Shown in pieces: positions 7,031 through 62,487 of a stretch of DNA of 64,000 bases; within the stretch, counting starts at the first letter, position 1; each line of letters begins with the position of its first letter. Source of the DNA: Icerya purchasi (taxonomy: Eukaryota; Arthropoda; Insecta; Hemiptera; Monophlebidae); assembly GCA_039619475.1 (NCBI GenBank), contig CM077115.1, positions 184,976,106-185,040,105 of the forward strand, read 5' to 3'. The position numbers were made by a program, and so were the translations under genes. The notes below the pieces were generated by a model. It was not told where the DNA came from and searched no databases. It saw only the letters and a program-made list of their open reading frames with translations.

Positions 7031-7589
7031 TTGAATGTGTTTGTTTGATAGATAATTCTTTATATAGTTGCCACAATATGGCCTTTTCTTAAAACTTGAT
7101 TTTCAAATTTTTCAATATTGTGCCCTTTAATTTAAAAATTTTGAGGGTCTCGTATTTTTTCTATATTCTGTCGATTTAAATAAATCATTTAAAAAAAAGA
7201 AGTGCCCTCCTGCTACCATGGAAAGAGCTGTGGACTTTTTTTAGTTTCCAGTCTTACCGCTTTAAACTTTCCAAAATTTTTGTCCCAAATATCATTATTC
7301 GAATTTTATATTTTCCGCATATTCTGGAAACTTTATTGTGCAGGTTAAAAAGAAAATCAATACCATTACTCATACAGAACTAGCTGTGGAATTTGTTAAA
7401 CATTTTTTCCTTAAAACTTAATTTTTACATTTTCAAAATTTGGGCCCTTTAATTTATAATTTTGAGGATTTTATAATTTTCTTATTATCTCACGAAAAAT
7501 GTACGTCGATTGACAAAAAATAGTGTTAACTCTCTAGTTATTATAGAACGAGCTTACGATTTTTTTTCTTGCAGCTTTATAAGATGTAT

Positions 7590-7850
7590 ATATATATATA
7601 TTAATTACAATGTAATTCTTAGGCAACTTCCATTAAAAAAAATGTTTCAATTTTATGTAAGGAAGAAATGTCCCAGTTTTATGTAACGTTTGTTATATTT
7701 TAATTTTTACTGACTACATATATATACATGTAATTAGATTTTGTAACCAAAAATGTCACAATTTTATGTAACGAAAATATGTCCTAATTTTATGTAATGA
7801 AAGTTAAATGTTAGAATAGGATTTTTGTAATTATGTTATTTTTATCTTAT
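7590..7850. repeat. Dispersed (TA)-flanked repeat, partial copy
   Basis: The stretch shares TTAATTACAATGTAATTCTTAG, the phrase 'AAAATGTC(C/A)CA(G/A)TTTTATGTAACG' and TGTTAGAATAGGA with copies at 56850-57180 (same strand) and 29262-29660 (opposite strand). It begins right after a (TA)n run, as the other copies do. Non-coding. Confidence 0.65.
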
Positions 7851-27280: not shown

Positions 27281-30200
27281 CTATATGGAAAATATAAAAG
27301 ACCAAATATGCATTTAGTGTATCATATAAACAGACTGCGACTTTTTAAAATACAAATACAGAAAACATTTTTTTCCCATATTATGCACAATATGAAGTGT
27401 ACAAACAGCTGTAAACCAATTTAAGTTAATTACATCAATGTGATAAAAATAATATTTAAATAAATATAAATCTAAACTAATACTAATAACAATTAATAAA
27501 GATTAATAAACGGAATATTTATAAAAACACATGCATACACACACATACCAGACTCATATTTATTTGCTTACAAATATAATATACAAACTCTTTTTCACTC
27601 ACAACTATATACACTCTCGCTCATTCGTATATTACTCCAGCTTATTTATGCACTATTATATGAAAGCGTTATAATTAATTTTTTTATGCGGATTGTTTAG
27701 TTAATGTATTCTTGAGTAAACTTTCAGAATTTTTATCAACGAATGTTAAATCTTAAATAAATTTTCTTAATTATTAATGCAGAGTAGGGGAGACTGGAAG
27801 TAACTGAAACAATTTTCTTATTGTATTTTTTTTTATCGCCAACTTATCATTATTTTCTAAATTAATTCATGGTATGTTGTTTACATAAAGTGTAAAACTT
27901 CTAAATATACATTTACATTTTTGTCTTATATTCATATAAACGAAGAATAATGGAAAAAACTGACAGTACTTCAAACGTTTCAGCCGTACCCGCACCAGGG
28001 ATAATTAAAACAGCAGTGATGAATAATGTGAAACTATTTGAAATATATATTTCTTATATATGGTAAATAATAAAGATTAACTAACACTTTTTCACATTAT
28101 ACATGCATACGTACAGGCCCGGATTAAGTGTACGATAGGCCCGGGACTACGGAAATATTAGGAGCCCGTTTCGGAAGTAACAAAATTATCAGTTTTATAG
28201 AATAACTAAATTTTCTTTGTCAAATACGCTGACTACATCTTCTGCTTTACGGATAGTTCAAAATCCACTGGCCATGTTGGATCAGCCTTTTTTGTCCCCC
28301 CTACCTCTCATCGCTTCCGGCTTCCGAAATTCTGCTCTGAATTTTCGGCTGAATCTCTCGCTATCTTCAAGTGTCTTGAGTTCCTCTCCTCCGCTCCGCA
28401 TCTTACTAAATACCTCATCCTTACTGATTCGCTCAGTGTTCTAATGTCCCTCCACAACTTTTACACAGATAGTGCAATTGTACAACGCATCCTTCTCCTT
28501 CACGATCTCCTTATTCGATCCCAAATTTTTCTTTATCTTTCATGTGGATCCCCAGCAATATTGCTTTCCCTCGTAACGAGGCCATCGACCGAGCTGCTAG
28601 GAAGGCATCCACGCTTTCATCCATATCCTCGTACTTCCCTTCTACCAGCGATATGAAATCCTTCTTGAAATCGCTTATAATTAAATCCTGGGAACGAGTA
28701 TGGAGTTCTAGTCAACAAAACAACCTTTTCCTTGTTAAACCTGATCCTCTATCTCACATCCTCCTTCCATTCTGTTTAAGGAAGAAAAATATTATTCTTA
28801 CCAGACTTAGGATTTCGCAATCCCGCCTGACCTATTCGTATCTCTCTTACAACGCACCGATTCCCCACTTTGTCCCTTTTGCCAAACCACACAGCTTTCC
28901 ATTCCCCATTTACTAACATCTTGTCATTCCCTTATAGCACTTAGAGCCCAGCATAGCCTCCCCCATCTTTACCACAACTCTTAGCTGATTCTCCCTGTCA
29001 TATCCGCAGCGCGTTCCAATTCCTTCATTCCCTTAACCTCCTAAGTTCAATTTAGTATCCCTTCCGTTCCCCGGGCGCGTATGGCCCGTTTGAGCAGCCG
29101 GCGCCTGTACCTTTTAATGTAATAATAATAACAATAATAAATTTTCTTTAATTTAAATTAATTATATTATTTTGAATTCACGAATTAACATATAATTATT
29201 AATGTAAACAAAACTAAATATCATATAGACAATGAGTAGATTTTTCGATGCCAAAAAAAAAATGTATTTATATATATATATATATAAACTCAGCCATTTT
29301 GGCCTCGCAAGTGGCTGTGCCCCTTGACCACTCTTGCTTTCATTTCTGTCTCTTTCTCTTCTATATTTTGTATAAAATGATCAAAATTTACAACGTAATT
29401 CTTTCTGGCATCAACACAAAAAAAAAATAACATAACCATAAAAATCATATTCTAACATTTAACTTCCATTATATAAAATTAAGACATTTTTTCGTTACAT
29501 TTTTCGTTACATATTTCATTACATAAAATTGCGTCATTTTTTAAATAACAATAACAAAAATCATATAAAATATAACAAACGTTACATAAGATTGGGACAT
29601 TTTTTGGTTCGAATGGGGATTAGCCTACGAATTACGTTATAATTAATATATATACATCTAGTATATATATAATTTTAAACAATGAATTATTTTTTCTTTT
29701 TCTGTAAATTCTTGTATAATATCATTAAAATCTACTGAATAGAGAAAATCTGTTTCGATCGTTAAGCTTGATAATGCCGATAATCTATCATCCGGCATGG
29801 TTTATCTGTACGTACTTTTTATTCTTTTTAATACCGAAAAAGATCTTTCCGCCTCACAGTTTGTAGACGGTATAGTTACAAATATTCTATATGCAATATA
29901 AATGTTTGGAAAAACATTTATAATTGCACATTTAACTATCCATGTCGGAGGTGGGAGTCTCTTCTAGCCCTCTCTCTCTTCTATATCCAAGCCTGTGTAC
30001 ATATTACTAAAAAAAAAGAAACTATAAAATACTAAATAATTATATCAAAATAAAAAATTAATATTTATTAATGAATAATAAGGATCTCTTAATTCTAATT
30101 ACTTTGTAAATTATTCAGAAAGACAGTTATGCCATACATGTAGCACAAATCTTGTCAAATTCCTCATGGGACCATTTGCGACATTCCATGCATTGGATTC

Positions 30201-33200
30201 ATTTTTCTGTCAGCTTGAACCTTAAGGTTCTAAACAAACGGAGCAGAAATATTTTTCTTCTTTACTATCGGATGAATTCAGTTTAATCTTTTTGCGTGTT
30301 TTTTTTAATTTTTTTTAAATTTTGTTTTCGTTATGTTTACCTTTCTCTTACTTTATAGAGCAATAAAACTTTGTGTTCTGTAGAACAGTTCGTATACTTT
30401 TTATCATGTTGAAGATAAACTAAGAATTCATTTTCCGGCATCCATCGTTCGAATTTCCTGTTCGAATATACTTTACTGGGGATCATCTCAAACAAAGTGA
30501 TGATCGTAACGCATACGTAGAAATATGAACATTGATGTAATCTATTATCAATAGCATTGACGGTTAATGCAATGGTTACCAGTGTTCCTCTTTTTCCTGA
30601 TTTCAGGGCTAAAATTTGTCGCATTTTTTTTGCTGCAACAACTTTATTCGGTTTATGTACAATTGTTATTTCCTCAATATTATAAATATATCTTTTGCTT
30701 CAAACTGGTTTCGATCCATATTTCTCAGATTTTAAACGATATCGTAGCTTTTTGGCCTGCCGAGTAAAGTTACCTTTTTAGAGTTTTTAAACTATTTAAT
30801 AAAATTTTTATAAATGGAGAACGAACGTAAAAATGAAATACGTAGAAGTAAGAGGAAGGACTCTGAAGAATATGTGTTTTGTATCTGTGTTTACCGTTTC
30901 AATTGTCACCGTAGTAGATAATAATTAATAAAATTGTCATATTTTCTAAACTGACTAAAATGTAGGTGAATACATGCATGTTTGTTAAAACTTTATAATA
31001 AAAACAAATATAATAAGGGGGTAAAAATAATTTATAACAATAAATTAGATAAATACCCCTTAATTAGGAACGTTTTCGGGTATAACCCATCATCAGCTAA
31101 AACTAACTTAATCAAAACTTGAAACACACTGGAAAGAACATAAGGAATACACATGTGTATATATAGTAGGTACATAGGAGGAACAAACATAGAAGGTATA
31201 AAAATCAATAGGATGAAATTACTAATACTTAATACAAAATATAAAATAAAACAGGAGGACCTAAAGTTAAACTTTTATATTAAAAAGTGGATTATTATTA
31301 TTTGGTAATTGATCATTTAAAATATTATTTTTATATTTATTTATGTAATAATTTTCTGCAATATTCATAACAACTCCTTTGCCATAAGTGGCCAAGACGG
31401 TTACAGTGTTTTCTAGTGAATTTGGTTTATGTTTATTTTTAATTAAATGTTCGGCATACCTGAAAACGTTCCTGAATAAGGTATTTATCTAATTTATTGT
31501 TATAAATTATTTTTACCCTTATATTTGTTCGTTTTTATTATGACTAAAATGTTTACAAATACACTAATTAGCACTATCAACGGATCATACACTAAAAAAT
31601 TAATAAAGTACATATATAAAAAAAGTAGGATATTATTTACCTACCTTTTTTTTTTTCATATATATCACAATTATAATCACAGCATAAAATTTTTCAAACA
31701 CAACACTAAACTCTTTTAATTATTATGCACGTGATTACTGTCGGTTTTAACCGAGAAACAAGTAATAATTGTAGACTACATGTTTAAAACAATTCAAACC
31801 AGTGTGTTCACATGAGTAAAGGAAACACTAGCAGTACTATCTCGGAATGTGTTTTAATCGTTTTCAGTCTCCTCTACATTAATAAGAAAATGGCAACATC
31901 GCAAGCGAATGTTAGTTAATTATGAAAACCAAAAATACGACATTTTTGAACTCTAAGCATTTCTCGAAATGTATTAGATTTTGTGTGTGATAAATGAAAA
32001 ACACACTTATAATTTACCTAGCCTGAAACAGTTGGATATAAGAGAAATCAGAACTGTACCGCCGAGTTTAGTACGTTGTAAAACTTAACTTCACAATTCT
32101 CGCACCCTAAATCTGCGAAGTCCTTCATTATCCAAGATACAAACTAATAGTGAACAGTCTAATTTGCTTAAAACTATTTCATACACTTCAATTTTTAAAA
32201 ATTCCCTGTAGTATTCTTTTCCTAATATTAACATCAATTAATCTTATTCATAATTATTTTACGGATTTTAATTCGAACATTTCCCATTCGCTCCGATCAC
32301 ATTGAATGCTGTGAATAAGATGACTCGAACAACCAGAAAATAGACAATACTAATTTAAGCAGGAATGAAAAGATGTCTAGTTATCAGACTACCTGTACTG
32401 GCATAATCGAATATTAAACGCGTTGCTCAAAAACAGGTCATATGTAGCGGACGTAATCGTTTTGGACCGGAAAATTTCGAGACGATTTTTCTGAGCAATA
32501 GGAGGTCGTTCGGAAAACAAGACACCATTTACTTTCGATCATTGTTAGAGGAAATTTAAACATCGATCCGAAAACGCCGCCTAGTTGAAAATTTATCGAA
32601 TTTACACGCGTGAAGTACAATTTAGACTAACAACCTATTTCTACTACTTGTAATAACATACGTTTATCGACACTTTGTTTATGTCACAAACTAGACATTT
32701 GAAAATACAGAATTATATTTTGTACTTCAATCACCACAAACTTTGTTGACTATTGTAGATCTACAAAATCAGAAAAACGTAACGAAGAAAATTTAGATAC
32801 CTTATTTTTTGAGATGAAAAATTATTTTCTAACCTTTTAGTATATTTCATTATGTCACGAAGCACTATTAAAGATACTTAAAATTTATATTTTTTAAAAA
32901 TAATAAAATACATGAAAATTGTTTCTCTTTATTTTATAATTTACCGCTTGCCATTGATTTTTGACTTAAATGAAAGCAATCAACTGAAAAGTATGTTAAA
33001 TCGGAAACTAATTCATTCTTTGCGTTTCTGATATGTGGCCAGGATACATTGGACACACCCGGTTGTGCAATGATTGCGAAATCATCTTGATTTTTAAATT
33101 TATCATCATTAGCCTGATAAACAGTAAGATATAGAAATTAATTATATATTATATACATATATACATATACGTATATATCATCAATTTATGCTATTCCCAA

Positions 33201-33251: not shown

Positions 33252-33322
<71 letters not shown>

Positions 33323-36300
33323 TTGTATCGTTTCCACCTCAAAATGTAACGTGCAAAGTACTTCTCCACCTCCGGCTTCACGTTTCCACCTCCGAATTCG
33401 GAGGTGGAAACGTTTGATGTGTATATATAAAGTATTTTATTCCTGTAGGAATGAAAATACAACCAAAAGATTTGTTATGTTCTTACGGATCTAATAAAAG
33501 TATCCTTTTTTTTTTTTTTTTTTTTTTTTTGTATCCTGATTGCTTGAAGGCAGTTCCAAGTGGAGATATATCAATTTTAATGCATTTTTAGAGAAGGTGG
33601 AAAAGACATACCAGTATCTGAAAATATACACCTAAGTTCAGAGTAATTCCGCTAGCGCTGCAGGCAGCAAATGTATATTTAATGTATAAGTTGTTTCCAC
33701 CTCCGAATATACAACGATCGTCTCAGACTCCGATGTATGGCAACAGTGCTATGAAAATTAAGTAAGGTAGAAATGAGGGGTACCAGTATTCGTATGATAT
33801 TGTAGAATAAATCTTAATAAAAAATTGAATGTGCGAAAGGCAGGTAACTTTTTAACAGATATTTTTGTAATTACAGCCTAGATTAGAATTTTACAAGAGA
33901 TAAAATTTAATGAAAATTCGATTTTGAAACAGAGTGAATTATCTTGAAATTTAAAATTTCATAGTTTTCTTCGTTTCTAAAATCAAAGTATTAAAAATTT
34001 GATCCTACTTCGATTTATCTCTCGATACCGTAACTAGCAAGGGCTAGGTTGAATCAAAATTTTACAAGATATAAAAACTGCTGCCAATTCACTTACTATT
34101 TTTTTTGTAATTAAAATTTCATTTCGATGCCCAAAAATCTAGAAAATTAAGTAAAATTTTTCATTTGCATTTAGTATCATTTTTTCAAAGAATTTTGAAT
34201 TGTTAAATTAATTTGAGCGGAATTTTATTCTTCGGAACAAAAATGAAACAGAAGCTTACAAAAATAGCTGTAATACAAACTAAAAATTGTTTTCATAAAC
34301 ATAAACTACAAACATAATATTCTAAGAATTTTTATACGTGTTATAAACGAAAGTTTTAATTTTGATCCAGTCCAAATTGTACAGAAGTTTGGAGTTCTTC
34401 TCCTTCAAACGTTCGCATTCTTCCTTCTTAGGAGGTATCTTTTTTTCTATATTTTTTTTAAAATGACGAAGAACTAATTTTTTCTGATCATCATTCCAGC
34501 GAACTCGTCCCTTTACTATACCGTTTTTCATATTTTTCAATTCCCTTTTTCTCGGCTGAGATTGCTCTTTTTGTCGTTCCTCGTCCTCTTCATAAGGATC
34601 CTCATTGAAATCCATTTCTTCCACACGTATTTCATTTTCTTTCTCGATCGCGGTTACTGAATTTTTTCTTGTGTTTGAAATTCTATTTAAAAGATCGTCA
34701 TCTTCTTCGTTGACATCTTCGACAGCTTCATCCACATTAGGATCGATTTCTATTTCATTCAAGCTTTTGCCTCTATATTCACCAGCTTTTCCTTGATCCA
34801 TTGAAATTAATAATTTAGAAATTTTTGCTGTTTGAAATATATCCTGCGGTAATTCGTAAAACTCTGTGTGTGTTTTTTCGGTGTGATTCATAAATGTACA
34901 AAGATTTCGATTCTCCTCGGGACTTAAATTCAACAGTTGCATGACTGTCGCAATTTGTTTACGTAATCTATTTGAGGTCAATAATTCTGGACTCTCTACA
35001 TCGCTCTGTTTAGCTAATTTTCTCATTATTACATCGGCTTTCAACCAGTTATCTGCAATTCCAGGGTACGCGAACAAATACTTGTTAGATTCGGGTACAT
35101 GATTTGGACGAATTTCGAGTATTAGAGTTACATAATTTTGAAGTACCTCTGGAAATAGGATTGTAACTGGGCGAGTCAACTTGCCACCTGTTATTACTCG
35201 CTTATTTTTTTCCGCTAACAATTTTTCGGATGTAGTTAACGCTTCTAACGCTTCATTTTGGTTTTGAGTGATTGTATGTGACTTGAGGTAACAATCAGCT
35301 TCCATATATTGAACATCCCCAATGCGTCGTATGTTATAAAGAATTGTGAGTGTTAACGTTGCGTCGACCAAAATTTTGTACGCTTTTATATTTTCCGAAT
35401 TTTCTCTCAACTTAGCTACACTTGCATTAGCCAGCTGTGTGACGTAATATCGAAACTGAAGAATAGATTTGGATAGTGGAAGTAGAGCAGGTTTCTCCCA
35501 TCTCTTTTCAGCTATTGTTTTGAATGCCATGCTTGAAATTTCAATATTCCATTGACTTAAAACCAAGTTTTTGAATCTTTTGATGAGTTTTAGTTTTTCT
35601 TCGCGACCAATCAACGTCAATTTCTGCGCGATAATACGATCCTCTTTCACAATTAACTTATATAGCAAGTCATACACATCTTTTAATCTTGTAGCCATAT
35701 GAACTGCAGTTGAGGCACCTTGGTACGTTTTATTTTCCTCGTGAAAGCCTGTTACAGTTTTTGCACTTGCAATCACCAGATCAAAGTGTTGAGGATCGAT
35801 AATATCGAATAAACTTAAATCGAAATTATTAGTACGTCGACGTATTTCGTGTAAGAGGCGACCTATTTCTCTCATTTTATTGGCGCATGGAATTCGAGCC
35901 TGAGGTCTTTTTTGTTTTTTCATATAATCCTCGCCATAATACAGAATCAGAGGGTCAGTTTTAACTGTCAAACTTATCTCGTCCGCTTTCATACGATTCA
36001 CAATCTTTTTGATTTCGATTTTCTTCAAAACTGAGTTTTTCTGTAAAGAGGTTGCGATTAATGTTTGAGACAATCCTAGATGATTTATTTTTTCACCCGA
36101 CGCATCGACCGCTTTGACAATGCACTTTTTATGATGTCGCCTCAAATATGTTTCTGAAATTAGCTTTTTACAACTGGAGCAGGGAACTTTTCTGTTGGCA
36201 GGCCTGTATATTTCTTTTCCGTGTTCATCTAAATTAAATTGGCCTTCGTATCGTATTAAAGAAATTATGTTTTTTCTAGCCGGACTTTTTTTAGGAAACA

Positions 36301-39300
36301 TCATCAATTCACGTACTGCTTTCTCATCTTTGTGGTGCCGAACTAAATGGCGCTCGAAATTACTCACTTCTAAATTAGAGCAATACGAACAAGGAGTTTT
36401 ATATTTGTAATTATTAGGGGGTTTAGATCTGATTCTTTCAGACTTTTCTCCATCACATTCTTTTTGTTTGTCGCAGTGTCCGCCTTTAGCTGATTTTTGT
36501 TTCCATTCAAATTCGAAACTTTATTTTTATTCAAATTTTGAATCGCGTCGTCTTCGTTAGAATTATCTTTTTCCATCAAATTGACATTTTCCTCCAAATG
36601 TTCGTCTTTTCTTGAAACGTTAGTCAGAGTTGTAAATGTACTTACGTCATTCGATGTACTGGGCTGGTCCCAGTCTTCTTCAATGAATGGGATTACTGGC
36701 GAAGAAGGATTGAAATTGTTTTCTGAGCCCGATAGGGAATAATCATCTGGAAGAACTGGCGAAGATAAATCCGGGGTATATTCTGACTCTGATGCTGAAA
36801 AATCATCGAAACTTTTCTCCAGACTATCATCACTGAGTTCTATAAACATTAGGGAATGGTCAAACATATGGCCACGATTTGTAGATTTGAATAATACAGA
36901 ATTAATCAGTGACGGTGCCGGAAATTTTAATAGGAACAGGCTACAAGAATAATTTAAAATAATTGAAGCTGTTTTACTGAGAGATACTAGCGGATTAGGT
37001 TGCCTCTCATATACAGTAAGAACCCGCATAGTCACCGGACGTCCGAAAACGCAGAGCACTGACCGACAGAGGGATTTTCCAATGCTGCATATTTTCCTAA
37101 TTCAGCCCTTTCTAATCATTATTTAAATTTGTTCGATATTATCGTTTTCCAGTATTGTATTTTGATTTAGTGGTCACAAGTAAAAAACCTACCGTGGTGG
37201 TACATTTTCATGAGAAAAATAAACATACTGAGGAAACTTGAACTGAGTTCATATGACTGCGACTTAGTTAATTCACTGTGAAGAAGAATCAAAAATTGGA
37301 GGAACAGAAGGCTCAAAAATTTGGTTTCAAGTCAAAGGTATAACAATACTTTAAGTATCTTTTATCTAAATCAATTTTTCAATTTTAGAAGCGCTCGCCC
37401 TTTTGATGACGAGAAAAAATCGGAAATATACACAATTTAAAGATGAACGATCGAGAGAAATGCAAAAACTGAAACAGTTTTTCATAATTTTAAAGCAAAA
37501 CTGGATCTTGTAAGAAAGAGAATGTTTCAAGGAGATGAACTTCAAAATTTTGTATAACACGCAAATTCTCTTGGAACAGGTACCCGACGAGTGCAATATA
37601 CTATAAGCAATTTTAATACTGAAATCTGGATGAAGTCCACATTTGTGTACAGAAAAAAAGGACGAGGCAATTACCCATAGAAGTTCAGTTTTACTTTTCC
37701 TTTGTAAGTTAAAATATCTATACATGCCTACTGTATACATTTCCGGCACGTCTACTGATTTATATTCAAAGTTTGAGTTACCGTTAGTAAATAATAAGTT
37801 ACATACCGTCTTCATTTTCGTTAGTAAAAAGTAATTTCAATTTTGCTAATTGAATCAATCTTTCTGATCTCTTCATCGTAACAAGTGGTAAAAATTATGG
37901 CTTACTATAACCTCGATGGAACGAACGCTCACTGCACAAAGAACTGAGATTTATTGTTTCTGTTGACTTAGTTACGTGCATCTATACACAGTGCGTTACC
38001 ATCCTGCGAAAACCATCAAAATGATGATGCAATGTGCTTTTGGTGATAGTGCTACGTTGGCATGATCGGTTTTCATCCGATAATGAGTCAGCGGTAGACG
38101 AGGACTGAAGGATAAGACACGTTTCGAAAACCATCATTTACACTGAAGAAATAAAACGTGTGCGCGCGTTTCGTATCGCATGATTTGACTGCGGAACAAA
38201 ACGTATTGAAATTTTACAATTAGCACGAGCAATGAAAGTTGGCGTTTCGCCTATGACCGAGAAAAGAAGGAAATTGCGATTTCAAAATTCAAAAATCAAA
38301 ACGATGCTGATCGTTTTTTATTTTGATACCGAAGGAACCGTGCATAAAAAATTCGTGTCTGAGAAGACGAACGTGGATAAGGGCAACTTGCTTTATGGAG
38401 AGACAAATTTTTTTATTGCATGACAAGGCACGATCTCACACCGCGGCCAATCTGTACTTAATTCTTGGCCAGAAAAATGTTTCCGGTGTTTAACCATCCA
38501 CCCTATTCGCTAGATCTGAGTCCACCAGATCATTTTCTACTCTCTAAATTAAAATTGAAGTTGAATGGAGCAACCATCACGAAGATCCAAACTGCTGTGA
38601 CGGCGAAATTGAACAATATTCCAAAGAGTGAGTTCCAGAGCGGAATGTAGAGATTGGAGGAGTGCGTTAACTCGTATCGCTATATTAATGAAAAATTTTC
38701 TCGCACGACAAAAAAGAAATGCATTGAGGGAAGTGGTGATCTGCAAGTCATCAGCATAATTTTCATTACTATGATCGATTCGTAGTTTCTTTTAGCTTAA
38801 TTACGTCACAAAGATTAGTTTCAACTACGATTATTAAGTAGTTGTGATTATTTCTCGACTACTACATTATGTAGTACAATTTACTAGGCATAAGTGTACA
38901 CATACTTCGACGGAGATCAGTTAACATATTAACTGATCTTTCATCGCAATGGCCTCTAATCAATGTGCTTTTGTTCGCGACACTGATGTCACTACATGGT
39001 CCAACAGTTTGGTGAAGTCGAGCATTCACAAAGTGTGTTCAAAATTCGGTATCGATATTGAAAATGATAGAAGAAACCAGATTTTTTGGAACATACAGTT
39101 GGATGAAAAAGTTATCATCACGGAAGAACTATTGGACTGATTGGGCTATTGCTCCAAGAGATATTATAATAAAAAGCACGCAATAACTCATCTATTGAAG
39201 AAAAACCCGCATGTGCAATATAACGAAATTTCTGACGAATGAGATCTATGTAAAAAATATTATGTGCTAGACGCTTTGGATTTTGAAGGGTTAATGATGC

Positions 39301-42300
39301 AAATGCGTACACCTAAAAAGTTGTCAAACTTCGGGAATTGTTTTCACTGATGAAGATGATTGTAGCGAAATACTGGGAATTCAAAAAAAATTACAAAAAA
39401 AAATCTACTGAGTTACTGCGTCAACAGAATAATCAACTTATTGGCTCTGTTAACGTACTAAAATCCTTGGAATTAACTGTGAAACAAGATGGTAATGAAA
39501 GAGAACGTCGGGCGGAAGAGGAACGTCGACGTACAGAAGATGAAAGACAGAAGGCCGAGGAAAGAGAACGTCGTGCCGAGGAAGGATGGGAGAAAGCAGA
39601 GGAAAGAAATAAATGATTTAGCACTCAAATTGAAAATACTGTTGAAGAGATATTGCCCCCAACGTTGTTCCATTGCCTATTAATCCGGCTAAAAAACATC
39701 GTGTTTAGGATTATATTTTACACCTCTAAATGGAGAATGGTACTTAATGCGACGTCAAAGGGAAGCTTGGAGAGACGCGGAAAAAAGACTGCATAACCGT
39801 TCTATGGTTCGTGCCAGAATATGGGAAGATGTATCGCACACAATCAACGTTGGAAATTCGCTCAAGAGAAGATGCAGACTCCTAACTTGGTACGCTGGCG
39901 GAAATATTATCCGAGTGCCAGAGGAATATAGAAATGAAATTCGGGAGGATGTGATAACAAGCATGATAAAAGACATTTTAACAAAAGAAAACGTTGCTCA
40001 TCATCTAGCTAATGATAATGCCAATGTATTACACTGACGTACAATTCCAAAATATTCTTTTCTTCAGCAAATAAAATACGTTTCCAAAACAAGGACATTA
40101 TGTTTTTTTTCCAATAAATGAAAATCGTACTGCAGGTCTGTTCGAATTTTCTACTGAAATTAATGTAGGAATATTGTAATATTTCTTATTATTTTTTATT
40201 TCTTATTCAGGCTTATTGTTTCGTAAAATTAAAAACTGAACGCGATACTCTTTCCAAAATTATGAAAACGGTTCAGAAAAACAATAGGCTACCCCACCAA
40301 AAGCATCTACTATACATGTAGTGTAGATACTGTTTATATGTATATCTTATTTATTTTTCGTTTGTACGTAGTTAGTACGGCAGAATACCACGTTTTAAAC
40401 TAAATGCTACTTGTATTTAGTGGCAACATCGCTGGAGGTGGAAAAGTGCTACAGATATATTATATAAATATAGTTGGAATCGGATAGGTATCATACAAAG
40501 TTGGAGGCACAAACGTACTGTTAATATATCTGTATATTGTATGTAAAAAAATTAATATTTCTTACCCCTCTCATATAGCCTGTCATTTAACGGGTTGCTC
40601 CAGCTAAAAGAAGAAAAAAAACTTCACTCTACATTGCATATTTCAGGTGGAGGTGTAGACGTCTGTCCCATATATGGAGGTGGAAACGATACAATGATAT
40701 ATATAAATTTAACTGCAATTTTTCCTTTAATTTCAATTTCAGTATTTTTTTTCTTTATATTAAAATACGATTCTTTATAATTAAAATAATTTTTTGTAGT
40801 TGGAGAATTATACTTAAACTTTAGAATTCACATTTTCATGGGTTATTATATAGTGATTAATAGATTATCAAAAATACTTTTTAAAAATCTACAAATATTA
40901 ATTTAAGATATTTGTGTTTATGGAAGAAAAAATTAATGGATAGTTACAAATCAATCCTTGATCGCGCAAGCGTACAAAAAAATCATTAATAATATTTTTT
41001 TTTAAATTTCAAGTTGGATTCGTCAAAAAAGACATTAGCCAAGAAGAGGGGAAAGTATGAGAAGCGGAATCAGATATTTATATGATTAGATATGGAGGAT
41101 AGGAAAGATTCCAGTGCTGAAATGACCGAGTGTGATGGTAAGGAGAGAACAAAAGATGCACAATACGGAGTTGAAAAACCAATTAACAGAAGAGAAGAGT
41201 AAAAGGAAGAACGTTCGCAAGCGATATAGGTGTACACTCAAACAAAATGTGATGAGCGTCACCTATAAAGTAATGAGAAGAAGGGTGTAGGGGACAGAGA
41301 GGAGAAGGGACTAGAGAGAAGCGAAATAAGGAAGCAAGGAGCAAATTGTGCCCATAGCGTAGGCGACAGATTGCAGAAAGAGATGAACATCGCATGGAGG
41401 GAAAATTTTGCAAACAAAGCTAATCATTCGTTTAACGTTCCCTTTTTATTATGGGCGCGCGTAGACAATTTTTTAATCATTTATCAGTAAGGATATGGCG
41501 AAAAAATTTATTAATTGATCTGGGAACAGCATTCCAAACGTTAAATTACGTTTTTTAACACAAATTCGATCACTAATCTTTTTTTAAGGTAAATTATTCG
41601 TTTATATTAAAGTTCGAAATATTAAAACTTTTTACTTATCTAGAGGATATGTATATTTTGTACTCTTCAGTTTTCTGAAAAGATAAATCGTGGAATTTTT
41701 TCAGTTACTCAAGAATATAAAATAGAATCTATAAAAATGAATTAATCATGTTTGAACACGCTTTTCAGAAAATTAGATTTAAACAAAATGAAATATCCTG
41801 TACTACTTGATATTGTTCAATAATTGGTCATTTTTGATATTAGTTATTTTAATATTTTAAGCTCATAATTTTTAATTGTACCCAATTTAAAAGTTACTAC
41901 GAACATTGTTGTACTAAGAAGTATTTCAACAACATGTACAATGCTTTTTAAAAACAGGTTTATATTTCAGTGGATTAAAAATTTCAATGCGCATCTTTTT
42001 CGTAATTTAAATTTCTGGCGTGGGTTATATAACGTATCATTGACTTTTTATTTACGAATCTAAATATCTACAAATTACATTTTTATTGCAAACGATGTAT
42101 ACAGGTAGAAGATAAATAAAAAGCTATTTTTACAAATTTAAAGTTGTATTACTTCAATGTTAAGCAGTTGCGGGCAATCATTTATATTTACTCCTCGAAT
42201 TAAAGGTACGTAAGAATTATAAAAATAAGGTACCTAAAACGATGATTCTTAATCAACATATTTCTTAATCAACACATTGCAGGAACTTCTGTTCCATTAC

Positions 42301-56000: not shown

Positions 56001-57378
56001 AAAAGTAATTTTGTACCGCCTGCGCATTTATCAAGGAAAAGTACCCTATATCATATATGTAACGGATGCTCAGCTTTTATAACTATCACGTTTTGGTGAA
56101 TTGTTTAAATTGCAATCAGATCTGATTCGAATTATGTTTCTCAAGTTCCGTTTCTCAAATTCTTAAAGATAATGAACGTTCAACGGCTCTTTAGATTTCT
56201 GAAACATTCGAACATGCTTAACAACATCTAACTTCCATTCATCCGTACTCCGGCTAATGTGGCAATCGAAGGCCCAATGAATAAAAATAAAAGTAATAAC
56301 AAAATATTGTTACGATAAAAAATCGTTTCCATACGATCGCTTTCGTGTAATAGGGTAATAGTCGGCGAAATTAAGATTAATTTTGAAATTTTTAGCTTTT
56401 TCCTTACGCAACTCTTGTGCTCGATAAAATTATAAATTGATACAATTTATACAAATATATAAAATAAAACTGTATTAAAAACAAATCATTAAGCTGATCT
56501 ATGTGTTGATAGCGTACGGCGCAATATGTTGTGAAATATTCATAATTATTTTTGTATAAATTGAAATATTATAAAAAATATTGCAAATCCATAAAAATTT
56601 GGAAGAATACAACGCGTTTCACTTTAAAGATAAATATAGAATCGAAAAAATTTCGAAAAAATCGAAAACTACATCAAAATTACAAATTTATAATATCAAA
56701 TATGCTTCGAATGTTATATAGCAATTTCTTACTGTACCATTACATTCATTTTTTGATGAATTTGCGTTATTTTTGAAAACGCTGTAATCGATACTGATTC
56801 TTTCAGCTATTACCAATTTAATCCATCTTTATCTCCCTCTCTCTCTCTATATATATATATATATTAATTACAACGTAATTCTTAGGCTATCCCCCATTAG
56901 AAAAAATGTCCCAATTTTATGTAACGTTTGTTATATTTTATAGGATTTTTGTTATTGTTATTTTAAAAATGTCACGATTTCATGTAACGATACAATGTCT
57001 TAATTTTATATAATGAAAGTTAAATGTTAGGATAGGACTTTTGTGATTGTGTTATTTTTTTTGTGTTGATGCCAGTAAGAATTACATTGTAAATTTTGAT
57101 CATTTTATACAAAGTATAGAAGAGAAAGAAACAGAAATGAAAGCAGGAGTGTCAAAGATGACCGAATTATATATATATATATATATATGTAACACATAAT
57201 TAAAATGAAAAATTACCTGATTTTCTTTAGCAAGTTTAACCAAATATTCCTCTGTACCCGTTCGACCAAAAAACGTCCACAAAACTACTTTGTAATCATT
57301 TATACGATCCAAAATACATACTTTGTTTGACCATAAGACAGCAATGAGTGCCACAGCAATAATCAATTTACTCACCAT
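27156..57378 (-). CDS. PLB1: Phospholipase B1-like secreted GDSL lipase, seven exons spliced
   Basis: Joining seven minus-strand exons gives 1215 nt, 404 aa plus stop. Exon lengths of 162, 214, 227, 163, 155, 169 and 125 nt, with intron phases 0, 1, 0, 1, 0 and 1, agree across every GT-AG junction. Family: phospholipase B1, membrane-associated type, SGNH/GDSL hydrolases that remove acyl chains from phospholipids. Seen: signal peptide (residues 1 to ~18), RPGDIDVVAAMGDSLCAGNG with nucleophile Ser ~99, block II in GYALGDF, GSNDFC with Asn ~210, and DCFH with Asp ~352 and His ~355. The end EFLCPTEENPFIRID has no hydrophobic anchor, so a secreted enzyme is likely. Length fits single-domain insect members. 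All exons are open, so the gene is probably functional although its 30 kb is mostly transposon-filled intron. The predicted exon 2/3 junction gives GGGQGTW, one Gly more than I expect for the family. Substrate is not deducible here. Confidence 0.9.
28200..29135 (+). pseudogene. LINE 3' fragment with RNase H, inserted in the hAT relic
   Basis: Across frames the plus strand reads CFTDSSKSTGHVGSAF (RNase H first Asp), ILTDSLSVLMSL (second Asp) and a mutated WVPxHxGxxGNEAIDRAARKAS block near 28540-28610. KSLIIKSWERVW and RLRISQSRLTYSYL follow, the C-terminal tail. It ends in a TAA-type microsatellite near 29120-29135, typical of I-like LINE 3' ends. It carries at least two frameshifts. Confidence 0.8.
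29262..29660 (-). repeat. Dispersed (TA)-flanked repeat, inverse copy
   Basis: The reverse complement matches 56850-57180: the poly(TA) edge, CATTTCTGTCTCTTTCTCTTC, CAACGTAATTCTT, AACATTTAACTTCCATTATA and AACAAACGTTACATAA blocks are all shared. It is bounded on both sides by TA runs. Confidence 0.75.
29680..29932 (-). pseudogene. hAT transposase C-terminal dimerisation domain relic
   Basis: The minus strand reads NVFPNIYIAYRIFVTIPSTN, CEAERSFSVLKRIKSTYR, a stop, then MPDDRLSALSSLTIE. The pattern AERSFSxLKxIKSxxR...RLSxLxxLSIE is the hAT C-terminal domain of ZMYM-type transposases. One in-frame stop lies where Leu-Arg normally follow. The upstream RNase H-like catalytic core is missing. Confidence 0.8.
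31005..31528 (-). mobile_element. Penelope-like element fragment with inverted terminal repeats
   Basis: Bases 31005-31083 and 31457-31528 are near-perfect inverted copies sharing TAAAAATAATTTATAACAAT and GAACGTTTTC. Between them on the minus strand is a GIY-YIG endonuclease tail. The minus strand of the left copy also reads CTGATGA, a short GGGT...ACCC hairpin, then GAAAACGTT, resembling the hammerhead ribozyme core of Penelope terminal repeats. It is a short, 5'-truncated insertion in phospholipase intron 6. Confidence 0.78.
31267..31458 (-). pseudogene. Penelope GIY-YIG endonuclease C-terminal fragment
   Basis: The minus strand reads YAEHLIKNKHKPNSLENTV, then MNIAENYYINKYKNNILNDQ, LPNNNNPLF and a stop. 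A conserved Glu followed by Tyr and an ILNDQL...NPLF ending are characteristic of the endonuclease domain that closes the Penelope polyprotein. Only the last ~60 residues remain, without the GIY-YIG motif or RT. Confidence 0.75.
32945..33113 (-). CDS. PLB1: Phospholipase exon 6 (catalytic Asp-His block V)
   Basis: The acceptor TTTATCAG precedes ANDDKFKNQDDFAIIAQPGV. The exon reads on to DLTYFSVDCFHLSQKSMAS and ends in phase 1 at GTAAAT. DCFH supplies the Asp and His of the triad. It lies only about 200 bases outside the left inverted repeat of the neighbouring mobile element. Confidence 0.9.
33264..33320. repeat. (TA)n microsatellite
   Basis: Uninterrupted TA dinucleotides directly abutting the left inverted repeat of the tyrosine-recombinase element. 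The right end also runs into a shorter TATATATA, so insertion into TA-rich DNA is likely. Confidence 0.95.
33312..33340 (+). repeat. Left terminal inverted repeat
   Basis: Twenty-nine bases, nine TA-type then CATTGTATCGTTTCCACCTC, matching 40677-40705 in inverse without mismatch. Twenty of them are complex sequence, which rules out a chance TA match. Confidence 0.85.
33381..33412. promoter_or_regulatory. Perfect 32-bp palindrome, possible recombinase core site
   Basis: Two 13-bp arms (CGTTTCCACCTCC and its inverse) flank GAATTC. Tyrosine recombinases typically bind two inverted arms of 11-13 bp around a 6-8 bp spacer, so the geometry fits. The function is inferred. Confidence 0.5.
34322..36519 (-). 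CDS. Tyrosine-recombinase-like protein (Crypton type) with zinc fingers and SANT-like C-terminus
   Basis: The minus frame is open from about 36519 to the stop at 34322. The nominal start at 36367 is GTG and real similarity begins upstream, so no proper ATG exists in this frame. Two Cys/His motifs come first: CSYCSNLEVSNFERHLVRHH, then CSSCKKLISETYLRRHHKKC. Numbering from the GTG, the catalytic series is Arg347/348 (YNIRRIGDV), Lys396 (GGKLTRP), NxxR 466-469 (SNRLRK), His495 (FMNHTEK) and Tyr504 (TEFYELP). The nine-residue His-to-Tyr spacing is that of XerD and Cre. An acidic linker follows, then RVRWNDDQKKLVLRHF...CERL...WIKIKTFV, a SANT-like helix bundle seen in Crypton-derived proteins. Expected role: strand exchange by DNA cleavage through the Tyr. 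The series looks intact, though Asn replaces the usual first His of HxxR. Function as host gene or transposase is open. Confidence 0.75.
36370..37059 (-). CDS. Acidic N-terminal half of the tyrosine-recombinase-like protein
   Basis: This minus frame overlaps the recombinase frame by about 150 bases. The ATGs are at 37029 and 36867. The second starts MFDHSLMFIELSDDSLEKSF and looks more natural. The product is Asp/Glu/Ser-rich, then Lys/Asn-rich (NKKNVMEKSLKES), and ends shortly after a run of five C at 36417-36421. One extra C would carry the frame straight into the zinc-finger frame. I infer a single gene broken by one base, either a real mutation or a homopolymer sequencing error. The region has no recognisable fold. 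Confidence 0.6.
   Translation of the reverse strand: MLCVFGRPVTMRVLTVYERQPNPLVSLSKTASIILNYSCSLFLLKFPAPSLINSVLFKSTNRGHMFDHSLMFIELSDDSLEKSFDDFSASESEYTPDLSSPVLPDDYSLSGSENNFNPSSPVIPFIEEDWDQPSTSNDVSTFTTLTNVSRKDEHLEENVNLMEKDNSNEDDAIQNLNKNKVSNLNGNKNQLKADTATNKKNVMEKSLKESDLNPLIITNIKLLVRIALI
37985..38765 (+). pseudogene. mariner transposase relic
   Basis: Pieces of a mariner transposase in several plus frames: MMMQCAFGDSATLA (N-terminal HTH region), VSHDLTAEQNVLKFYN, RKLRFQNSKIKTMLIVFYFD with VHKKFVSE, LHDKARSHTAANLYLILGQK, and FNHPPYSLDLSPPDHFLLSK. Asp residues of the DDD triad are partly visible (IVFYFD; SLDLSPPDHF), but the parts between them are deleted. Numerous frameshifts; dead. It probably inserted into the larger TIR-bounded element. 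Confidence 0.85.
38949..40037 (+). pseudogene. Relic of a large-DNA-virus-type MSV199/DUF3627 DNA-binding protein gene
   Basis: The first frame (38949-39140) ends EKVIITEELLD at a TGA. The same frame continues past it and past a second TGA near 39239, with a DLCKKYYVLDAL-DFEGLMMQMRT segment, then shifts into FSLMKMIVAKYWEF and a Glu/Arg-rich coiled coil (39338-39616). After another break, 39747-40037 reads MRRQREAWRDAEKRLHNRSM, VGNSLKRRC and GNIIRVPEEYRNEI. This order (N-terminal MSV199-like domain, coiled coil, C-terminal DUF3627-like domain) is that of proteins in entomopox-, irido- and ascoviruses. At least two nonsense codons and two frameshifts make it dead. The family call rests on remembered motif patterns, not a search. 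Confidence 0.6.
40677..40705 (-). repeat. Right terminal inverted repeat
   Basis: Exact inverse of 33312-33340, ending in ATATATATA. Just inside it, 40644 carries a degenerate copy of the GGAGGTGG word. Confidence 0.85.
41080..41430 (-). pseudogene. I-like LINE C-terminal fragment
   Basis: The minus strand reads ICRLRYGHNLLLASLFRFSL, PSPLCPLHPS and AHHILFECTP, the post-RNase H region with a Cys-His knuckle shared by the fragments at 50905-52300 and 53430-54250. No other domain remains. Confidence 0.7.
42596..42750 (-). CDS. PLB1: Phospholipase exon 5
   Basis: The acceptor GTGCATAG is followed by two bases completing the split codon, then LQPMVEAQPLPTSCKIARVM, ECYC and LDVMTKFQQIQREI. The donor is a strong GTAAGT in phase 0. 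The Cys-rich segment matches the CNC region of phospholipase B1. The following intron (33114-42595) contains the whole TIR-bounded tyrosine-recombinase element. Confidence 0.9.
42760..44540. other. Intronic AT-rich sequence, nothing recognised
   Basis: Part of phospholipase intron 4. Overlapping sense/antisense short frames at 44210-44446 carry no motif. Weakly purine-rich on the plus strand towards 45 kb, where LINE similarity begins. Confidence 0.4.
44550..45460 (-). pseudogene. LINE reverse transcriptase relic in phospholipase intron 4
   Basis: The minus strand in scattered frames reads ISCFILKHFPK (PG.D..S..ILKHLP block), LATFVDVYSTFENDYFPTV (first catalytic Asp block, normally FVDVSGAFDNV), LPHGSCLSPTFFNIYSS (normally LPQGSCLSP) and ISADDILHYST (the YADD region, Asp pair present but Tyr changed to Ser). 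Many stops; dead. Probably the same family as the other I-like fragments in this gene. Confidence 0.82.
46302..46464 (-). CDS. PLB1: Phospholipase exon 4 (GxND block III)
   Basis: The acceptor CTTTTTTTAG precedes LISVMFGSNDFCNNLC. The exon continues EVHRRDLTESFIYLKNNLPR and ends in phase 1 at GTAAAT. The Asn in GSND stabilises the oxyanion in this family. Confidence 0.94.
46982..47290 (-). pseudogene. I-like LINE 3' end with poly(A) tail
   Basis: The minus strand reads FYSSLLKLDIPTPYITACNL and ends LNKRIRI at a stop, followed by 40-odd bases and an A run (plus-strand T run 46982-47000). The same ending (LYxxLLxLxxPTP...ISDRIRI) closes the fragments at 51 kb and 54 kb. A severely 5'-truncated copy in phospholipase intron 3. 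Confidence 0.68.
48177..48482. repeat. Dispersed repeat (MITE-like), copy 2
   Basis: Begins GGCGTCGCCGGCCGATGAGCC and ends TTTGGCGACGCCCG, with an interior collinear with 3966-4275. It lies in phospholipase intron 3 about 55 bases from the exon 3 donor. Confidence 0.75.
48539..48765 (-). CDS. PLB1: Phospholipase exon 3 (block II)
   Basis: The acceptor ATACAG precedes GGQGTWRTYLTLPNIIKEFN. GYALGDF and VCEAGAMSQDIMFMTKELVK follow, and the exon ends INNHWK before a GTTTGT donor in phase 0. The AGAMSQD block is strongly conserved in phospholipase B1 proteins. Confidence 0.94.
50037..50081. repeat. (TA)n microsatellite
   Basis: About 22 TA dinucleotides. It sits at the left edge of a LINE fragment, so it may mark the insertion site. 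Confidence 0.95.
50085..50411 (+). pseudogene. LINE reverse transcriptase C-terminal fragment (different family)
   Basis: The plus frame reads KKVEALEIWYWERLQKISWK, DKVSISLVLD and later EATCDRPRRIPIDIV. This matches the C-terminal pattern of many LINE proteins (ExFEMWxWRRMxxISWxDxVxNxxVL ... GRPR). The upstream codons through the TA repeat are not part of it. Truncated at both ends. Confidence 0.6.
50905..52300 (-). pseudogene. I-like LINE fragment: RT thumb, RNase H and C-terminus
   Basis: The minus strand reads LIIRSKLDYCSFIYGCASKS and IRLCLGALRSSRIPA (RT thumb, 52260-52110). Later come LIISDSMCALKA (RNase H Asp) and DMLWVPSHMGRECNEMIDSL (RNase H last block) near 51600-51400. It closes with RLRLNHTLLPSS, NPDHIFHECPSL and LYSDLLSLKFPNPY down to 50915. 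Many stops and frameshifts. It lies in phospholipase intron 2, in the same direction as the gene. Confidence 0.83.
52435..52648 (-). CDS. PLB1: Phospholipase exon 2 (GDSL nucleophile block)
   Basis: The acceptor TTTCCAG follows a T-rich tract and the exon starts AAAGTTCAAACAG in phase 0. It encodes VPFPCNTS, YNLRPGDIDVVAAMGDSL and ENRGLSFIGG, then ends in phase 1 at GTAATA. It holds the catalytic Ser in Gly-Asp-Ser-Leu. Confidence 0.93.
53430..54250 (+). pseudogene. I-like LINE 3' fragment with RNase H and poly(A)-like tail
   Basis: The plus strand begins with an RNase H remnant (ITDSKSVLQAISSPPSHSR), passes a WVPGHSGIEGNEAADFLARS-like block near 53605-53670 in another frame, then reads PFCPLHSTDPPFICNPNHIL, FECPALFPECSHLYAELLAL and ISDRLRI at the stop near 54176. 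A short tail and an A-rich run at 54229-54250 follow. Same family as 50905-52300 but on the opposite strand, in phospholipase intron 1. Confidence 0.82.
54550..55720 (+). pseudogene. Heavily decayed LINE reverse transcriptase relic
   Basis: Scattered plus-strand pieces such as LCNKAFVLQANYHKSGNWLR near 54640, PGLNFNRILLWSSHVNNFKR near 55310 and ALKTVLNRL near 55500 recall the CR1/BovB-type RT thumb (GLxFxxxLLWSxHVNN). Stops are dense and no catalytic box is recognisable. The call is tentative. Confidence 0.42.
55750..56840. other. Intronic AT-rich sequence, nothing recognised
   Basis: No recognisable domain. The 74-codon plus frame at 56552 is Lys/Ile/Asn-rich, which fits AT-rich non-coding DNA. 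Confidence 0.45.
56850..57180. repeat. Dispersed (TA)-flanked repeat, direct copy
   Basis: Starts in a (CT)n(TA)n run, includes TTAATTACAACGTAATTCTTAG and CAATTTTATGTAACGTTTG, and ends with AGAAAGAAACAGAAATGAAAG plus (TA)n. It is the inverse of 29262-29660. Its right TA run is only about 30-40 bases from the exon 1 splice donor. Confidence 0.75.
57217..57378 (-). CDS. PLB1: Phospholipase exon 1 (signal peptide)
   Basis: ATG at 57378 in the context CATCAGTGATGG opens MVSKLIIAVALIAVLWSNKV, a signal peptide with a hydrophobic core. The next upstream triplet is GTG, not ATG. It ends AAAGAAAATCAG before a GTAATT donor (phase 0), 54 codons. An acceptor-like AAACAG lies just upstream, so a separate 5' untranslated exon is possible. 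A dispersed repeat ends within about 40 bases of the donor. Confidence 0.85.
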
Positions 57379-61561: not shown

Positions 61562-62487
61562 TACAGTCGACTCGCGATTATCCGGATTAATTGGGCGGCC
61601 AGCCGGTCCGAATAGCAAAAAATCCAGATACGCCGGAGTTCAAGGTTAAATACTGCAAAATAAGCGAAAAAATGAAAATTAACTTATCCCATAATAAAAA
61701 AGTACTACATGAAAATTAACTTACGGTGGTGTACATTGACTATATCCGCTTCTGCCGTTTCTTCGATCTCGTCGCTGCCCATTCATTCTGTAACGTCGTC
61801 CGTATTATTTCACATCCTGGAATATGTTTTATTCGAAAAACAAGCTCCTCGTTGGCCTTTGAACTGTCCAAATCACATTGTTCGTCAGTTTCACCCCACT
61901 TATCACTGACTTTACGATCTAATAATATTGTCCACGACCGCACTAATGCTATAGAACTAATCTCTTCCCATCCCTCAGATATAACATGAAGCATATCAAC
62001 TGATTTTAAAGCAACCTGACAGAACTTTTCAACGCTTGATATTAGTCTGGCGAGAAGGCGGCGTCGATATCTTTTTTTTAAGGTCTCTAGGATTTCTTGA
62101 TCCATAGGTTGACAATTATCAGTTGTAACGTTTGCTTAAAGAAATATTGCGCCTTTATATCACCATCTTGTAACTCCTCAGTTGTCGGATTGGAGAATTG
62201 TCGAGAATAACGCTTTTTTCTCGGTAACTGTTTGTCGGACAAATGTTTCGCAACTGCGGACACAAACTCTTTGTGAGGCCAAGTTTTAAAAATTTCACAT
62301 CATCTTCATTTGCAGCGAATGTAAACAAATATTCAGATACGTACCGCATATAACTTTAGATTTTATAAAAGCGCATTGGCTTTTTCTTCTTCTTTTATTT
62401 ATTTATTTTTTTTTTCTTTGAAAATCGATCCGGATAATACGGAGTCCGGATAAACACGATCTGGATAATCGCGAATCGATTGTATAT
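61562..62487 (-). mobile_element. pogo/Tigger-like DNA transposon, internally deleted
   Basis: The left terminus TACAGTCGACTCGCGATTATCC and the inverse of the right terminus (TACAATCGATTCGCGATTATCC) form inverted repeats flanked by TA, the target duplication of this superfamily. The interior has the last part of the transposase on the minus strand. At ~925 bp it is well short of an autonomous copy. Confidence 0.85.
61740..62349 (-). pseudogene. Tigger-type DDE transposase C-terminal relic
   Basis: The minus strand reads NSYREKSVILDNSPIRQ (normally KxxLLLDNAPxH, second catalytic Asp; the His-type position is lost). A frame-shifted stretch matches the LPPNVTSLIQPMDQ region. It then reads MDQEILETLKKRYRRRLLAR and continues EEISSIALVRSWTILLDRKV to the stop at 61740. 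The PMDQxxxExxKRRYRxxLL block is diagnostic of the pogo/jerky/CENP-B-type DDE domain. The N-terminal DNA-binding domains are deleted. Confidence 0.85.

Follow-up and report, generated by a model that had tools for sequence, protein, structure and literature searches.

A 64,000-nucleotide stretch of the genome of Icerya purchasi (assembly GCA_039619475.1, contig CM077115.1, positions 184,976,106 to 185,040,105, here called the window) contains a member of a DNA transposon family that has few copies, was active recently and combines terminal inverted repeats (TIRs) with a gene for a tyrosine recombinase (YR). The termini and the YR gene move as one unit. We place at roughly 0.6 the probability that the YR itself moves the element, through a putative circular excision product and a YR-catalysed crossover that would integrate it into TA repeats. 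The fuller reading, for which the odds are about even, is that of an animal YR transposon family in which the TIRs would be the halves of one palindromic site, split at genomic (TA)n; such a family would target microsatellites and carry a virus-type MSV199 gene aboard. Inverted ends are commonly taken to indicate a DDE transposase, and to our knowledge the combination of a YR, matching inverted ends and TA-repeat sites is not shown by the textbook families of such elements.

The ends of the window copy are delimited by the following features, with positions counted from the first base of the window; the two inverted repeats are read directly from the sequence.

33320..40697, no strand, element core TCATTG...CAATGA, 7378 bp, with TA on each side, defined by the termini common to the copies
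33312..33340, plus strand, left terminal inverted repeat, exact over 29 bp, its outer 8-9 bases being TA tract
40677..40705, minus strand, right terminal inverted repeat, exact over 29 bp
33262..33320, plus strand, (TA)29.5 microsatellite at the left edge, the target tract, perhaps grown after insertion
33331..33341, plus strand, word TTTCCACCTCA, one mismatch to TTTCCACCTCC
33363..33373, plus strand, word TCTCCACCTCC, one mismatch to TTTCCACCTCC
33380..33413, no strand, perfect 34-bp palindrome made of two opposed words (33383-33393 plus, 33400-33410 minus), identical in the three complete copies
33593..33603, minus strand, word TTTCCACCTTC, one mismatch to TTTCCACCTCC
33694..33704, plus strand, word TTTCCACCTCC, exact
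40434..40444, minus strand, word TTTCCACCTCC, exact
40676..40686, minus strand, word TTTCCACCTCC, exact, inside the right terminus

The initial annotation of this DNA, made from the sequence alone, had reported exact 29-bp inverted termini, and these are confirmed: about 20 bp are of complex sequence and the remainder is TA tract, while 40-nt arms taken at the termini are 90% identical. The terminus itself reads TCATTGTATCG. With arms 1-15 kb apart, the window has one exact inverted repeat of non-simple sequence that reaches 20 nt or more, and none of 60 first-order Markov sequences has any; at 18 nt the comparison is one against a Markov mean of 0.07. A chance origin of the repeat is rejected by this control and by the genomic copies described below. 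The word TTTCCACCTCC occurs nine times in the window at no more than one mismatch, against 0.60 expected, and eight of the nine occurrences lie within the two ends of the element. Iterated words at both ends had also been noted, and they are present; the opposite orientation claimed for them holds only in part, since the right end has minus-strand words only and the left end has words on both strands. The 34-bp palindrome was not part of that annotation.

The gene on the minus strand is a tyrosine recombinase, recognised by its conserved catalytic residues and its predicted fold. It occupies two overlapping open reading frames (ORFs).

34322..36520, minus strand, main open frame of the YR, 732 codons, with Cys/His finger motifs, a core-binding domain, the YR catalytic domain and a C-terminal helical region
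36370..37101, minus strand, open frame with the N-terminal acidic part of the YR gene

The description of this gene as near-intact stands: its main frame has 732 open codons, and the N-terminal part lies in another frame, with a 1-base difference near 36443 that is absent from copies 2 and 3. There are two Cys/His finger motifs, followed by the catalytic residues in order (R399, K447, N517-x-x-R520, H546 and Y555), with a His-Tyr spacing of nine. This is the R-K-NxxR-H-Y series first proposed, and each catalytic R, K, R, H and Y is found in 25 to 27 of the 27 rows of an alignment of the family (R399 in 27, K447 in 26, and R520, H546 and Y555 in 25 each, with two gaps apiece). Position 517 is more variable, with N in 22 rows, C in three, T in one and one gap. 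The alignment was made without sequence P0022, and the count of private substitutions also without P0027. The predicted structure of the gene product has the YR fold, and the C-terminal helical region, at about residues 677-731, is conserved. A Pfam scan of the 732-residue ORF gave no family at E up to 1. A fold search with the YR against viral models gave nothing at E <= 0.001, a nudivirus VLF-1 and a Sputnik integrase being among the models listed, and a plasmid search for the YR gave none.

The host assembly of 1.10 Gb in 41 contigs was searched with the 120-bp left end, the YR and a 21-base terminus. Nearly all of it lies in two huge contigs, C1 (601.7 Mb) and C2 (497.3 Mb), and these sizes suggest very few, very large chromosomes. 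Four copies of the element were found: three have different flanks and retain the two termini together with the YR gene, and a fourth is truncated. Along its full length, copy 2 (C1:93995512-94009430) aligns with the window element at 97-99%; near window position 37262 it is split by a 6.6-kb non-LTR (long terminal repeat) retrotransposon of the LINE (long interspersed nuclear element) type that ends in poly-T, and the matches on either side of this insertion overlap by 7 bp. This nested LINE (L012/L016, about C1:93.9994-94.0060 Mb) has open frames of 511 and 1254 codons and is apparently recent. Copy 3 (C1:94224204-94227727), at 3.5 kb, keeps both termini and the YR gene and has lost window 36650-40464. 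Copy 4 (locus L045, about C1:364.199-364.202 Mb) keeps the right terminus, lacks everything left of window 33647 as well as 34954-38936, and holds only the C-terminal part of the YR. In the three complete copies homology begins at the TIRs, and no flank resembles that of another copy.

Searches with the terminus tie it to these copies. A search with the terminus and its adjoining sequence, as the initial annotation had proposed, was made for the left end (120 bp) and gave three matches in the assembly, one of them the window. At no more than one mismatch the 21-base terminus occurs at seven places in 1.10 Gb, which are the seven remaining ends of the four copies. At up to three mismatches there are 32 places against 14 for a reversed-pattern control; three of the 25 places with 2-3 mismatches were inspected (both with two mismatches and one with three), and none was at an AT tract or resembled an end. 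Solo termini or a family of miniature inverted-repeat transposable elements were looked for, and at no more than one mismatch there are none apart from the element copies. An 18-nt terminus gave five matches in prokaryote contigs, which were judged to be chance; none of them showed any further part of the element, and one of the contigs was judged bacterial. The termini and the YR are one moving unit because three complete copies stand in different flanks and the terminus is found only at copy ends. The proposal of one element with TIRs and a YR is thus supported. Termini standing alone without the gene, or a recombinase gene that is single-copy and syntenic in distant insects, had been named as observations that would speak against it; in the assembly no terminus at this stringency stands apart from the copies, and the YR gene is present several times.

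Between copies 2 and 3 there are 29 differences in 3291 sites; the window copy departs from these two at 55 and 56 of 3284 sites and, in the right part, from copy 2 at 72 of 3428. Zero lesions in the 732-codon frame are common to the window and copy 2 or copy 3. Codon differences between copies mostly change the amino acid (25:8 and 22:11, with 3 and 5 stops), as is expected of copies decaying after insertion. All three complete copies are damaged, and neither an undamaged copy nor a circular form was seen.

The genome also holds older relatives of the gene. A search with the YR gave at least 27 matches in the host assembly, of which eight lie in the four copies and 19 are diverged relics with 23-54% identity, two of them at one place. 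These relics are the trace of a long history of related elements in the host genome; at ten of the relic loci, fetched as 10-kb pieces, no TIRs were found beside AT tracts, the relics being old. A second YR profile search, with 7989 candidates scored, has among the matches listed P0027, which was already known, and the new P0031 and P0032. The last is the vertebrate protein Si:dkey-117m1.4 of Nothobranchius, which matches the YR family profile at E 4.6e-27. Judged by eye, it has a finger, a stretch resembling a YR and the C-terminal domain in common with the family; its BLASTP alignment with the first query row has a coverage of only 3%. Unlike the Icerya gene, it has CHD1-type domains in front and is not part of an element; it is likely an old domestication.

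All three complete copies read TA|TCATTG...(C/T)AATGA|TA within alternating AT tracts. With the element removed, the AT tract measures 14 bp in copy 2 and 20 bp in copy 3, and the left tract of the window copy alone is (TA)29.5. Across 98.8 kb of flanks, 103 of 8707 TA dinucleotides lie in runs of at least 14 bp, a figure that is indicative, as the threshold was set after the sites had been seen and tracts can grow after insertion. The edges are compatible with a TA duplication, which is not countable inside TA repeats. Copy 3 borders a repeat of which the window holds three uninterrupted copies; in these the repeat continues into a TA tract at the point where copy 3 starts. The joined flanks of copy 3 match window 56887-56848 over 40 of 40 bases across the junction, the right-hand 14 bases being TA repeat, and the repeat copy at 29580-29678 alone extends further, at 80% over 100 columns. 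These empty sites are therefore one-sided, short of full two-sided proof. No empty site for the window copy or copy 2 was found in the stretches compared. The repeat family itself (window 56848-57050, 7584-7832 and 29455-29678) continues into TAATTAATATATATA and contains tandem units, GTTACATAAAATTGGGACATTT, in its interior.

Two further parts of the element, both absent from the initial annotation, bear on how it moves.

38949..40037, plus strand, second gene, for a protein with an MSV199 domain and a charged stretch resembling a coiled coil, interrupted by stop codons and frame breaks
38298..38647, plus strand, mariner-looking transposase remnant between the two genes, named by motif resemblance and unconfirmed by Pfam and PDB sequence searches

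The YR and MSV199 genes are oriented outwards, and each ends 0.7-1.0 kb from a terminus. The MSV199 domain (PF10553) is matched at E 8.2e-7, above the Pfam gathering score, and MSV199 is a domain of large DNA viruses; a virus-type domain is here carried within a transposon. Two frame breaks of the gene are common to the window copy and copy 2. Only three relatives were found among 5.8 billion proteins, with 46-83% identity over the aligned parts, on short contigs (2.0-5.1 kb) whose sources carry the codes ena, jgi and lgn; two of the three are 358-residue proteins, each with its own MSV199 hit. The protein was looked for in phages and none was found. Its structure model, with a mean pLDDT (predicted local distance difference test) of 49, is too poor for use. 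Of the four copies, the window copy and copy 2 carry the mariner-looking remnant, which is broken in both; its region is absent from copies 3 and 4.

These observations are best accommodated if the YR is the moving enzyme. The YR would excise the element as a circle, at whose junction the two termini would form inverted arms (GGTGGAAACGATACAATG / CATTGTATCGTTTCCACC) on either side of a short AT core. Strand exchange between this core and a genomic TA repeat would split the arms again, leaving TIRs at both ends and TA tracts as the target. Accessory binding sites, perhaps for the N-terminal fingers, may be provided by the iterated TTTCCACCTCC words together with the 34-bp palindrome, and the MSV199 gene may be a passenger, dispensable in cis. 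The classical YR site is described as two inverted arms of 11-13 bp with a spacer of 6-8 bp between them, and joined termini with inverted arms and an AT core would thus have the layout stated for YR sites in that account (PMC3212892). Of the recombinase-type genes found, the YR alone is present in all four copies. The lineage appears to have moved with MSV199 already broken and the YR apparently not, because the MSV199 breaks are shared and the window shares no YR-frame lesion with copies 2 or 3.

Several points weigh against movement by the YR and fit a composite, in which a mariner/Tc1-type DDE transposase, acting in trans or formerly inside the element, works on the TIRs with TA duplication and the YR is a captured passenger. 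TIRs with TA at each edge, as seen in all three complete copies, also fit mariner/Tc1 enzymes, and the mariner-looking remnant is carried by the window copy and copy 2. An inverted-repeat element with Tc1-like ends (CAGTGGGTCAAAA) at L045:458-2118, near copy 4, likewise stands between AT runs. There is also a precedent in MarCry-1_FO, a Crypton-mariner composite of Fusarium, which, like the Icerya element, has a YR gene, TIRs and TA at its edges; its own TIRs are 16 bp long, it has TA duplications, and PMC3212892 holds it to be moved by its own mariner transposase. The present element differs in having only a broken remnant, damaged in both carriers, whose region is missing from copies 3 and 4, and every place where the terminus occurs at no more than one mismatch is on a YR-bearing copy. 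Subterminal words repeated in this way and a 34-bp palindrome are, as far as we know, not typical of mariners. We consider a composite, which is the chief alternative and akin to the gene capture suggested in the initial annotation, possible, if doubtful.

Derivation from a large arthropod DNA virus or a polinton-like element, with a YR integrase and MSV199, reduced to 7.4 kb, is improbable. The MSV199 hit would fit such an origin, as would the endogenous nimaviruses of crustaceans, whose zinc-finger YRs are described as inserting into simple repeats (PMC10871703). In the pieces scanned with Pfam, however, MSV199 is the only viral family above the cut-off, and no capsid, polymerase or packaging gene was recognised; IMG/VR scans with the YR, MSV199 and the terminus gave no relative, and the window copy and copy 2, its LINE aside, share both ends and the order of parts. 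A segmental duplication of an immobile host locus with a YR gene and inverted repeats, suggested by two copies lying about 230 kb apart on one contig, is highly improbable and is rejected by the flank comparison, as homology stops at the TIRs and the flanks are unlike each other.

Around the element, two minus-strand open frames presumably belong to a host gene.

32937..33137, minus strand, open frame with a host exon (phospholipase-B/GDSL-like His block, by motif resemblance), beside the left end
46255..46464, minus strand, open frame with a host exon (GSNDFC block, by motif resemblance), on the other side of the element

We take the minus-strand exons on both sides (46446 and 32981) to be parts of a phospholipase-B/GDSL-like gene by motif resemblance only, and a third open frame of this putative gene gave no Pfam hit. 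A DDE_1 transposase fragment lies at window 61740-62135 on the minus strand (Pfam E 9.7e-8).

Among known systems, animal Cryptons (CryptonA, CryptonI) are alike in being eukaryotic DNA transposons with a YR as their recombinase. In the passages of PMC3212892 that describe them, they have no terminal repeats and a YR without a C-terminal domain, and CryptonI is known from insects. The Icerya element differs in its TIRs (three of three complete copies), Cys/His fingers, C-terminal domain and second gene. Since it has both terminal repeats and a C-terminal domain, it is not filed as a Crypton, though it would be Crypton-like in its working if the YR reading holds. The suggestion that the family is Crypton-related is unsupported, given the lack of a Pfam family for the ORF and an architecture unlike that of animal Cryptons as described there. 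The open-access literature searched yielded no animal YR element that has its own TIRs.

Endogenous nimavirus elements resemble the Icerya element by description, with a zinc-finger YR and insertion into simple repeats in arthropod genomes; their YRs have C2H2 and SAM-like domains, insert into telomeric repeats and are held not to be close to Cryptons (PMC10871703). A nimavirus subgroup with inverted ends and (AT/TA)n targets is described in the same source as having a Ginger2-like DDE enzyme and no YR (PMC10871703). Those are giant viral genomes, whereas here 7378 bp lie between the ends. The Starships of fungi are also large multi-gene elements of eukaryotes for which a YR is held responsible for movement, and TIRs are reported for a putative Starship without a YR captain (PMC9594970, in the parts on these elements). 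They differ in size (27-393 kb, PMC10175614), in their DUF3435 captain and in being fungal, against 7.4 kb and a YR ORF with no Pfam family at E up to 1 here. Euplotes Tec1 and Tec2 likewise have a YR inside transposons, and they differ in also encoding a DDE transposase, with the YR thought to resolve intermediates (PMC3212892, in its remarks on Tec elements).

Like the Icerya element, the Tec1/Tec2 elements have TIRs. If a YR element with inverted ends is the correct reading, TIRs could arise as a split recombination site and would not be a DDE mark, which would change repeat classification, and a TA-repeat-directed recombinase would become available for testing. The family is also a further YR lineage, one that apparently stands apart from Cryptons and has a related vertebrate host protein as well as many diverged relics in the host genome.

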